Under the pieces are notes generated by a model. That model was not told where the DNA came from, ran no database searches, and saw nothing but the letters and a program-made list of their open reading frames with translations. The position numbers and the translations under genes were made by a program. Of a DNA stretch of 64,000 bases, positions 6,288 through 31,869 are shown in pieces. Source of the stretch: Halococcus salsus (GTDB lineage: Archaea; Halobacteriota; Halobacteria; Halobacteriales; Halococcaceae); NCBI RefSeq assembly GCF_009900715.1, contig NZ_JAAAJC010000001.1, forward strand, positions 423,216 to 487,215. Reading direction: 5' to 3'. Each line of letters opens with the position of its first letter. Position 1 is the first letter of the stretch.

Positions 6288-7691
6288 TCAGAACCCGCGA
6301 TTCCGGCCACGACGACGCCGGATCACGACGACCGTCCCGAGCAGGACCAGCGCGACGAGCGCCGCCGCGGCGAAGATGACCTTGGCCCAGCCGACGGTCG
6401 AGGAGAGCAGGCCGCCGGCGTCCCCGGTCTCGGGGGCGGCCGTATCAGCTTCCGAACCGTCCGATGCCGCCGTTCCCGGCTCGGCTCCCGGCCGTTCGGT
6501 GCTCTCGTCCGCGGCCGTCGACCCGTTGGCTCCCGCGGCGACCCCCGTGGCGTTCGAGCCGACGGACGTGGCCGCCGTCGCGTCGGTGGTGGCCGGTGTC
6601 GCCGTGCTCGTGGCGGCGCTCCCCGGAACGGTGGTCATCGTGCGCTGGACCGAGGGTGAGTCGCTGGCCGTCACGTTCGCCGGGCCGCCGTTGCCGCTGT
6701 CCGAGAGCGCGCCGAAGACCCCGAACGCCGTGAGGTTGGCCCCCGAGACGGTGCCGCCGTCGCTCGTCGCGCCCGGCACCCGTGACCAGCTTCCCTGGCT
6801 CGCGCGCCAGAGGGTGGCCGCACCGCCGCCCGCTCCGTCGTCCATCGTCAACGAGAGCGAGGAGTCACCGGCGGCGGCGAAGGCCTCGACGTAGGCCCCA
6901 CGGTTCGCGGTGCCGGCGGGGAGCGCGGGCGGGTCGGTGATGGACCTGAACGCCACGTTCTGTGCGGTGAACGAGAGGGTGGCCGTCGAGAGTTCGAGGT
7001 TCGAGACCGTGTTCGGCCCGCGGTTACGCATCCCGTAGTAATCCCAGTTCGAGTTGTTGCGCGCGACGCTGTTCCGGACGGTGTTGTTCCCGCTCTCGCG
7101 CTCGAAGTGGATCCCCCACTTGTTCTGCACTGCGACAGCGTTTCGGACCGTGTTGTTGTGACTCATCCCGCCGACCGCGATCCCGATCGAGTTGTTGTAC
7201 GCGGTGGTATCGATGACCCGGCTCTCACCCGATTGTGCGAGCGAGACCCCCGAGATGGTGCCGTTGGCGATGACGTCCCGAACCGTGCTCTCGTCGACAC
7301 CGAGCAGGAACACCCCGACCGTCCACTCGTTCGCGTGGAGGCGCTCGACGGTGACGTTCGTGACCGGGGTCTGCGCGCCGTCGACCTCGACGCCGTGGCC
7401 CGTCCCGGTTCCCGTGACAGAGTGGCCCGCGCCGTCGAGGGTGACGTTTCCGCTCGTGACCTCGATACAGGCCTCGTCCTCGTCCGCGACGTCGCCCGTG
7501 ACGTTCTCGGTGAGGACGTATCGTCCCGGGGTGTCGATGGTGGTACACGCGTTCACCGGGGTCGCGCCGGCGGGCTGTGCGCCCGCGAGACCGACCGGGG
7601 CGACGGCGAGGGCGAGGACGGCGAGCGCCGCGAGAACGACGGCGGCAAGGGTGCTCTGACTGCGGTTCGAACCGGCGGGGAGGGCGTTCAT
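6288..7691 (-). CDS. Secreted beta-helix (NosD-like) surface protein with C-terminal anchor
   Basis: 467-residue exported protein. An N-terminal signal region (residues 14-38, ending AGAQ) leads into CTTIDTPGRYVLTENVTGD and LDGAGHSVTGTG, the start of a right-handed parallel beta-helix of NosD/PbH1 type with repeated N-N-T-V-R rungs to about residue 215. A beta domain follows, then a Ser/Thr/Ala-rich stalk (about 335-420), a membrane helix and a basic tail (VVVIRRRRGRNRGF). Unlike its two paralogues at 13390 and 19965 it lacks a PGF motif, so it is probably held by an uncleaved membrane helix rather than by archaeosortase processing. The ligand or substrate is unknown. Confidence 0.85.
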   Translation of the reverse strand: MNALPAGSNRSQSTLAAVVLAALAVLALAVAPVGLAGAQPAGATPVNACTTIDTPGRYVLTENVTGDVADEDEACIEVTSGNVTLDGAGHSVTGTGTGHGVEVDGAQTPVTNVTVERLHANEWTVGVFLLGVDESTVRDVIANGTISGVSLAQSGESRVIDTTAYNNSIGIAVGGMSHNNTVRNAVAVQNKWGIHFERESGNNTVRNSVARNNSNWDYYGMRNRGPNTVSNLELSTATLSFTAQNVAFRSITDPPALPAGTANRGAYVEAFAAAGDSSLSLTMDDGAGGGAATLWRASQGSWSRVPGATSDGGTVSGANLTAFGVFGALSDSGNGGPANVTASDSPSVQRTMTTVPGSAATSTATPATTDATAATSVGSNATGVAAGANGSTAADESTERPGAEPGTAASDGSEADTAAPETGDAGGLLSSTVGWAKVIFAAAALVALVLLGTVVVIRRRRGRNRGF

Positions 7692-31515: not shown

Positions 31516-31576
31516 TTCGCGAAACGACGGCATTGCTGGAGGATGGGTTTTCGGTGATGATTCGAGTCGGAAAGAG

Positions 31577-31647
31577 GGGGTCGGAGGGATTTGAACCACC
31601 TGAACGTCGCTCCCGTCGGTCGCTCGTTCCGTCGTTCAAATCCCTCC
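31577..31647. repeat. Direct and inverted copies of the tRNA-Trp 3' end
   Basis: Positions 31577-31597 repeat exactly the 21 bases at 31692-31712, which are the acceptor 3' strand and T arm of tRNA-Trp. Positions 31634-31647 are a 14-base inverted copy of 31583-31596, so 31583-31647 can also fold as a large hairpin with a loop of about 37 bases. Duplicated tRNA 3' ends are what tyrosine integrases leave behind; no integrase gene remains nearby. Confidence 0.6.
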
Positions 31648-31690
31648 GCGTTCCATGCTCGCGGCTCGCGGGATTGCTCGCCGCGAGAAG

Positions 31691-31869
31691 TGGGGTCGGA
31701 GGGATTTGAACCCCCGATCGACTGATATCTCCGGTGTGCGCCTCGGTCCTCCAGAGGGTCGTCACGGCGGGTGGTGATCAGCCGCCCGCTCTGTATATCA
31801 GTCTGGAGTTTCGTCACCGAGCGCGTTGCCTCTGGAGTCAGTCGCCATGCCTGGCTTGGCCACGACCCC
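31691..31869 (-). tRNA. tRNA-Trp (CCA anticodon) with a 105-base intron
   Basis: Acceptor stem GGGGTCG (31863-31869) pairs perfectly with CGACCCC (31692-31698); the T arm contains TTCAAAT, the discriminator is A and the 3' CCA is not encoded. The anticodon CCA is at 31833-31835, with stem ACTGA/TCAGT. The exons are 31832-31869 and 31691-31726 (74 bases together). The intron 31727-31831 follows the base after the anticodon, the usual place in haloarchaeal tRNA-Trp. It contains GTGACGA (C-like) boxes, a CTGA (D'-like) box, GACTGATAT complementary to the 3' exon anticodon stem and CCTCTGGAG complementary to the anticodon region. In known haloarchaea this intron guides 2'-O-methylation of its own tRNA. 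A GGTTTACC element about 28 bases upstream fits a promoter. Confidence 0.95.
31727..31831 (-). ncRNA. Box C/D-like guide RNA within the tRNA-Trp intron
   Basis: The 105-base intron carries two GTGACGA boxes and a CTGA box, with stretches complementary to the anticodon and the 3' side of the anticodon stem of the same tRNA. This matches the haloarchaeal pre-tRNA-Trp intron known to guide methylation of C34 and U39. The exact splice points are inferred from the tRNA fold. Confidence 0.8.

Follow-up and report, generated by a model that had tools for sequence, protein, structure and literature searches.

Tail-flanked hairpin repeats at the 3′ ends of haloarchaeal tRNA genes, a probable family of small mobile elements

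Introduction

Integrating DNA is well known to target the 3′ ends of tRNA genes, and repeats found there in direct orientation are routinely read as attachment sites. We asked what such a repeat stands for at the tRNA-Trp gene of Halococcus salsus. The gene lies in a stretch of 64,000 nt (the window), in which a sequence-only reading had found the end of the tRNA repeated nearby and had considered that a tyrosine-recombinase element might have left it, as a deletion scar or as what remains of an attachment site. Here, we report that the tRNA-Trp repeat is an ordinary member of a widespread haloarchaeal tRNA-locus repeat family, not a scar. The units of this family share one architecture, are specific for their host tRNA, are spread over tRNAs and over the class, are gained and lost with exact tail junctions, and stack. 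The family is apparently undescribed so far: no earlier description was found in the open-access literature, and with subscription journals mostly outside that search an older report may exist.

Results

The repeats at tRNA-Trp are the stems of one hairpin unit

The tRNA-Trp(CCA) host gene (31691–31869, minus strand, as are all features of this locus) carries a 105-nt intron. It was missed by ARAGORN at default settings, found once introns were allowed, and scored 45.6 bits with the Rfam tRNA model RF00005. The tract that gets duplicated is the tail of the tRNA, nt 53–73, which starts at G53 in the T loop and ends at the discriminator (31691–31711), where agreement has a sharp class-wide boundary. 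Immediately 3′ of the discriminator base lies hairpin 1 (HP1; 31657–31690), which folds and is kept in a genome of the same genus (G002) without the remainder of the unit. It is followed by an inverted arm complementary to the tail copy (31634–31648, by repeat comparison and fold), by a core of subtype A that forms the foldback tip (31597–31633) and has related cores in the genus, and by a direct copy of the tail (31576–31596) that agrees at 20/21 positions, with the discriminator A changed to C. The whole unit, as delimited by tail scan and by RNA and DNA folds, is thus a 94-nt interior plus the tail copy (31576–31690).

The exact 21-base repeat that had been read from the sequence (31692–31712 and 31577–31597) stands, and anchored on the tRNA it becomes the 20/21 copy of nt 53–73. 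The repeat pair has 96% identity over 24 nt; on the two strands of the window the 21-mer is found at these two places and nowhere else, and the chance of an exact copy ≤300 nt away is ∼1e-10 at the window base composition. The inverted copy, claimed as 14 bases at 31634–31647, was recovered as 18 nt with 94% identity (31631–31648). Since the tail copy and the inverted arm pair with each other to form a foldback, the repeats first noticed are two stems of one unit. The hairpin that had been proposed is borne out by the folding of the 115-nt stretch 31576–31690, with a z-score of -6.28 as RNA and -5.93 as DNA (0/200 shuffles as good in either case).

For nine loci and for the window stretch, tRNA models were the only Rfam matches that reached gathering score; SNORD15 matched the opposite strand far under its cut-off and was rejected. 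A plasmid search (PLSDB) returned a single Natrinema record, covering the tRNA part only. This match (CP031304.1:611570–611746, in a 987-kb Natrinema thermotolerans plasmid record) has 89% identity to the tRNA-Trp region of the window, and no feature of the PLSDB gene table, which is without RNA genes, lies there. Elsewhere in the window, an ARAGORN tRNA-Arg call (6927–7019) was taken as a false positive because its T arm is absent and the Rfam tRNA model does not report it in its own genome.

Ten genomes of the genus were compared at tRNA-Trp. A tail copy (≥17/21) was present in 6 of the 10; G009 has a copy with an indel, G003 has the arm without the copy, G002 and G007 have no copy, and the cores vary between species. 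The sequence-only reading was to fall if all relatives shared the arrangement and none ever had an element, and on this point the outcome is mixed: no large element was seen in the 10 genomes (∼1.5 kb to either side, contig ends permitting), and the arrangement itself is not universal. In G002 an HP1 remnant occupies the place of the unit of the window genome (G000), and this looks like a deletion within the unit, not a never-filled site. The G004 flank past the copy aligns with the G007 flank past the tRNA (44/60).

The same layout lies behind many tRNA genes and carries the tail of its host

A weak second match to the window, found in its own genome by similarity search, has the same order of tRNA tail, hairpin 1, inverted arm, core and tail copy behind tRNA-Met, with tRNA-Met T-arm sequence. 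In the genus the layout was also found behind tRNA-Val, Lys, Thr, Leu, Phe, Cys, Arg, Ser, Tyr and Glu, and cores related to the subtype A core of tRNA-Trp lie 3′ of tRNA-Lys, tRNA-Thr and tRNA-Met.

The tRNA flanks of four genomes were then read: G000, G002, and two syntenic sisters from another family of the same order (G010 and G016); a few listed tRNAs of G002, G010 and G016 are outside this set. A match of ≥17/21 located ≤350 nt downstream of a tRNA was scored as a copy of its own tail. Such copies were counted 3′ of 12/48 tRNA predictions in G000, 12/43 in G002, 20/44 in G010 and 22/42 in G016, or 64/177 in total once two tandem tRNA-Leu artefacts (L074 and L305) were removed. The 177 predictions include a few spurious ones, among them a ‘Ser(CGA)’ misprediction inside an Ala array (L252), which was kept in the tail counts (177 predictions, 90 units). 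Tails of other tRNAs were found downstream in 18 of 5148 pairs (G000 5/1574, G002 5/1222, G010 7/1234, G016 1/1118). Upstream of the tRNA, own tails numbered one in G000, two in G010 and none in G002 or G016, and these three matches appear to be overlapping predictions.

The tail copy was identical to the tRNA (21/21) in 60 of the 90 units, and the acceptor strand plus discriminator in 74. Unit interiors had a median of 101 nt (range 22–323, n = 90). An inverted arm matching at ≥9/13 positions was present in 74/89 units vs. 15.4 expected from shuffles, and at ≥10/13 in 62/89 vs. 2.8 (one unit <40 nt was left out of the arm test). The remaining 15/89 arms are weak (<9/13), which counts against the explanation that we favour below. 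The arm flanks fit the T stem and acceptor end of their own tRNA, with a summed score of 466 vs. 373.7 (sd 8.8) for permuted tails (0/300 permutations as high). Terminal inverted repeats were absent, with a mean of 2.85/12 matches vs. a null of 2.89 (89 of the 90 interiors, ≥50 nt; the shorter one omitted). From their lengths (22–323 nt) and stop-free runs (107 codons at most), the 90 interiors showed no integrase gene or cargo between the repeats. Judged by length, no gene-carrying unit was found when own-tail copies were sought across all available flanks of the four genomes.

Units stack: five lie behind tRNA-Ser(TGA) and four behind tRNA-Gly(GCC), both in G016. The tRNA 3′ end had been suspected to be a repeatedly used insertion site, and that part of the sequence-only reading proved right. 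Some arrays, e.g., at Asp(GTC) and Gly(GCC), are plain tandem duplications. A polarity with the newest unit nearest the tRNA fits Val(GAC) and Ser(GGA) but is contradicted at Leu(TAA), and it is not claimed.

We also observed a second unit type, with a shorter tail copy (∼13 nt, the T-stem 3′ strand plus the acceptor) and an AGTCCC...GGGACT foldback ahead of it, in G016 at Arg(CCT) (L291, +193 and +413) and in G010 at L319 (+53) and behind Ala(GGC) (L252, +233). Separately, a 20/21 tail copy without a foldback lies at +500 after tRNA-Gly(TCC) in G000 (L034) and G002 (L235).

Interiors are shared between different tRNAs

Comparison of the 90 interiors revealed 172 homologous pairs between different tRNAs at E 1e-6; clusters were built by single linkage, and cluster 1 has one misjoined member. 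In the best cases the homology spans from the first base past the discriminator to the last base ahead of GTTC. The second unit behind Val(CAC) in G010 and the second behind Leu(TAG) in G016 share 92.6% identity across 122 of their 124/125 nt, and their tails are host-specific. In G016, unit 3 of Lys(TTT) and units 1 of Arg(CCG) and Arg(TCT) have a common HP1 and core; the differences lie mainly in the arm and tail, each of which is like its host. Units of this cluster were not found behind the same three tRNAs in G010.

The cores are subtypes of unequal length that MAFFT misaligned, so patterns and scripts were used instead. One core type, scanned in named genomes, gave at least 128 matches in at least 120 stretches. 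Among the 128 matches listed, 119 lie on the same strand ≤500 nt 3′ of a tRNA (110 of them ≤200 nt), covering at least 26 tRNA kinds. Seven of the other nine are ≤200 nt from the end of the available stretch, and two are true orphans. The tail was 21/21 in 80 and ≥17/21 in 115 of the 119 tRNA-linked matches listed. The 80 core-match titles listed are all haloarchaeal, one being a MAG named just to Euryarchaeota; these names and the sequence character are the grounds for calling the class haloarchaea. Among the laboratory haloarchaea, Haloferax sulfurifontis carries a unit. In 114 of the 119 matches listed (four below 17/21 and one at the edge were omitted), agreement between the tRNA and the copy was 89–99% at nt 62–73, dropped to 59% at the next base and was 30–53% beyond; nt 53–61 are forced by the pattern. 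Compensatory changes were found in the foldback tips, with 141/145 standard pairs across 29 distinct 13-nt loops; shuffled tips gave a mean of 114.6 standard pairs and a maximum of 125.

Distribution in the class, the phylum and viruses

A generic pattern, GATTYGA-N20–50-GTTCRAATC, had a match in 238 of the 242 class genomes; its reversed form had none (0/242). The pattern also picks up tRNA-Ser(CGA) genes and chance matches, and 238/242 therefore counts genomes with a match, not proven units. Because the reversed pattern does not preserve tRNA-like sequence, other members of the phylum are the better control: the pattern was present in 23/24 haloarchaea (G000 and G010–G032) vs. 13/124 others in a phylum sample. 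Reading of 30 pattern loci gave 20 with a matching same-strand upstream tRNA, 2 tRNA-Ser genes, 6 chance-like matches in other sequence and 2 hairpins with no same-strand tRNA in the available stretch (L090 and L093).

In viral contigs, the core-specific pattern was found in one contig, next to a tRNA-Glu. A virus-borne element was considered and rejected: among the 80 generic-pattern viral stretches listed (of at least 120 in total), the tRNA-associated ones are mostly tRNA-Ser genes, L131 excepted.

Units are gained and lost at the tail junctions

A site was scored as clean when the post-tRNA sequence of one genome follows the tail copy in the other. Between G010 and G016, filled/empty junctions were clean at 4 of the 24 orthologous tRNA loci with a unit in either genome, with identities over 60 nt of 97% at Glu(CTC), 97% at Val(GAC), 93% at Arg(CCG) and 92% at Phe(GAA). 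Glu(CTC) is the simplest case: the tRNA is bare in G016, and in G010 an 81-nt interior and a 21/21 copy stand at exactly the same point. Many orthologous tRNAs of this pair have a unit in one genome alone or have different cores. Between G000 and G002 no clean junction was found (0/12 loci), and this counts against our preferred explanation. Each single filled/empty case is explained by either insertion or exact loss between the tails; the shared cores, however, require gain somewhere.

At tRNA-Arg(TCT) of G016 (L297), the tRNA departs from its G010 counterpart at four T-arm positions, and three downstream copies are identical or nearly so to the G010 tRNA tail. Tail copies can therefore be fossils that are not constantly converted by the tRNA, and the exchange of the tail at this locus is easier to explain by a recombination-delivered tail than by target duplication alone. 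The middle tail behind Leu(TAA) of G016 is similar to that of Leu(TAG).

Integrated elements at tRNA ends leave a different mark

In G016 (contig C1), a ∼55-kb island separates tRNA-Arg(TCG) (1166485) from its unit (1221367; L337:3311), which adjoins the tRNA in G010. Its boundary carries 14 bp of the tRNA end as a direct repeat and has no foldback. Genuine elements thus use tRNA ends too, but leave another mark. The units are, like attachment remnants, bounded by a direct repeat of the tRNA 3′ end; their ends differ from those of this real integrated element (one island examined).

A second displaced tRNA end, also unlike the tail copies of the units, lies upstream of and within L030 (G002:C5:84332–84395): a tRNA-Val 3′ half, starting from the anticodon loop, is followed by a hairpin unit, and the arrangement resembles the distal end of an integrated element. 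At L339:9653 (G171), L363 and L415, hairpin units occur with no tRNA in the available upstream stretch, and these are candidates for displacement by islands.

Discussion

We consider, with a probability of about 0.6, that the units are small, non-autonomous and non-coding mobile hairpin repeats that insert at haloarchaeal tRNA 3′ ends and duplicate the tail of their target. The host tail on both sides, the interior common to different hosts and the break at the discriminator argue for insertion with target duplication. The interior of ∼100 nt (HP1, tail-complementary arm and variable foldback core) would be placed directly 3′ of the discriminator base through a staggered cut of ∼21 bp at the tRNA end, a spacing that may reflect two DNA turns, and a fresh copy of nt 53–73 would arise downstream, much as targets are duplicated by transposases, casposases and in CRISPR adaptation. 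The arm would then be matched to the new host, either through quasi-palindrome correction templated by the hairpin or because selection favours arms that sequester the spare tail, which if left free could misfold the precursor tRNA. Loss of a unit would follow from recombination between tail copies. No protein was found to be encoded by the units. Several points count against this explanation: insertion is read from the filled/empty sites and the tail pattern, with no enzyme, excised circle or movement seen; clean junctions are few (4/24 and 0/12 loci); the tRNA-Trp locus of G002 looks like a deletion; the unit ends have no inverted repeats; the tail was exchanged at Arg(TCT) of G016; and same-locus recombination with donor DNA of other species could spread the units without transposition.

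That last point leads to an alternative that deserves a hearing, although we judge it clearly less probable. The tail and interior might form one cassette, a circle or transferred DNA, that enters another cell's copy of the same tRNA by homologous or site-specific recombination at its T loop or tail, with rare moves between tRNA kinds followed by gene conversion of the tail. The flanking tails would permit excision and re-entry, tandem duplications do exist (Asp(GTC), Gly(GCC)), the middle tail at Leu(TAA) of G016 resembles Leu(TAG), and the Arg(TCT) tRNA of that genome has a new tail while its three copies are nearer the tail of the sister species. Yet a circle from another tRNA would bring the wrong acceptor strand into its host, and one core is found at ≥26 tRNA kinds with host tails; for these shared cores an element-borne tail is disfavoured on that ground, although Arg(TCT) shows that exchange occurs. 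The copies at Arg(TCT), moreover, were not converted by the tRNA. It seems rather unlikely that the hairpins are a host-useful trailer RNA. Selection would then keep them for a part in 3′ processing of the tRNA, in ending transcription or as a small RNA, and local duplication and shuffling would act alongside. The same-strand position of all tabulated cases, the compensatory changes in the core, the presence of the pattern in 238/242 class genomes and the coincidence of the unit edges with the tRNA 3′ processing site would suit such a role. The units are, however, patchy and fast-changing, G010 and G016 orthologues often differing in unit presence or core; 113 of the 177 tRNA predictions are without a unit; and the exact copying of the acceptor strand and discriminator is left unexplained.

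The deletion scar or attachment-site remnant, from which this analysis started, has become very improbable. Such elements do leave a direct repeat of the tRNA 3′ end, and archaeal integrases prefer tRNA 3′ ends (PMC8371274). Against it stand the Arg(TCG) island of G016, whose 14-bp terminal core has no arm beside it, the cores common to units at ≥26 tRNA kinds with the tail of each host, and the occurrence of the core in one viral contig of the collection, beside tRNA-Glu. A purely local origin, in which template switching or slippage duplicates the tail and makes the foldback afresh at each tRNA with no element involved, is scarcely credible: T arms are near-palindromic and some arrays are plain tandem duplications, but HP1 and core are homologous across different tRNAs and families of the class. 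These shared interiors contradict template switching as the origin, yet it may explain the adaptation of the arm.

Several known systems resemble the units in part. The E. coli tyrT repeats (rtT RNA) are tandem units behind a tRNA, each with the tRNA 3′ end, at one locus; a host-matched arm at each tRNA is a feature of the haloarchaeal units and is not known from tyrT. CRISPR arrays and casposons have a short duplicated repeat at a fixed anchor, and casposons, which integrate at tRNA ends, duplicate their target. As in CRISPR arrays, units of ∼100 nt are split by a duplicated short repeat at an anchor, but what lies in between belongs to hairpin families that units have in common and is not a foreign spacer. 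Integron attC sites are imperfect foldbacks whose variable tip is enclosed by short inverted boxes, beside an anchored insertion point. The likeness seen is one of shape; the boxes of the tRNA units are T-arm sequence, and no integrase or cargo was seen. With respect to MITEs, terminal inverted repeats are absent, and target-site duplication is present as a pattern (21/21 in 60/90 units, clean empty sites at 4/24 loci).

The SMR-A and SMR-B repeats of Haloquadratum walsbyi, as described in PMC3119063, are ∼80–110 bp long and non-coding and have a strong target preference, SMR-A targeting palindromes of IS605-type elements; their mobilisation is called ‘enigmatic’ by the authors. By that account SMRs end in inverted repeats, leave their target unduplicated and insert into other elements. 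The tRNA units share their small size, non-coding nature, haloarchaeal hosts and target preference, but lack terminal inverted repeats, lie between tail copies and sit at tRNA 3′ ends. In the group of palindrome-associated elements (PATEs) and IS200/IS605, PATEs leave the target unduplicated and have no tie to tRNA genes (PMC3119063). PATEs are likewise non-autonomous with hairpins near their ends; the tRNA units differ from this group in showing tail duplication. With tRNA-targeting integrases (PMC8371274) the units have in common the tRNA 3′ end as site, the direct repeat and the restored tRNA gene; they differ in having neither integrase nor cargo, in their inverted arm and in one core at ≥26 tRNA kinds. 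In Methanopyrus kandleri, a palindrome lies right behind many tRNA genes (PMC5217627); it is a short fixed motif, and neither a tail copy nor a host-matched arm is described there.

A more specific version of mobility is nucleic-acid-guided insertion, in which the arm would recognise a single tRNA by pairing with its tail, over the T-arm half and in part the acceptor end, direct insertion there and duplicate the target each time. We regard this as distinctly unlikely; if it were true, tRNA genes would anchor growing arrays of units in nearly all haloarchaea.

In haloarchaea, then, a large share of the direct repeats at tRNA ends belongs to this hairpin family and not to attachment sites, and automatic island calls from tRNA-end repeats will be misled. 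The family poses the question of how one hairpin is matched to many tRNAs, and which enzyme duplicates exactly nt 53–73. Sister genomes with filled and empty sites make the mechanism testable in ordinary laboratory haloarchaea.
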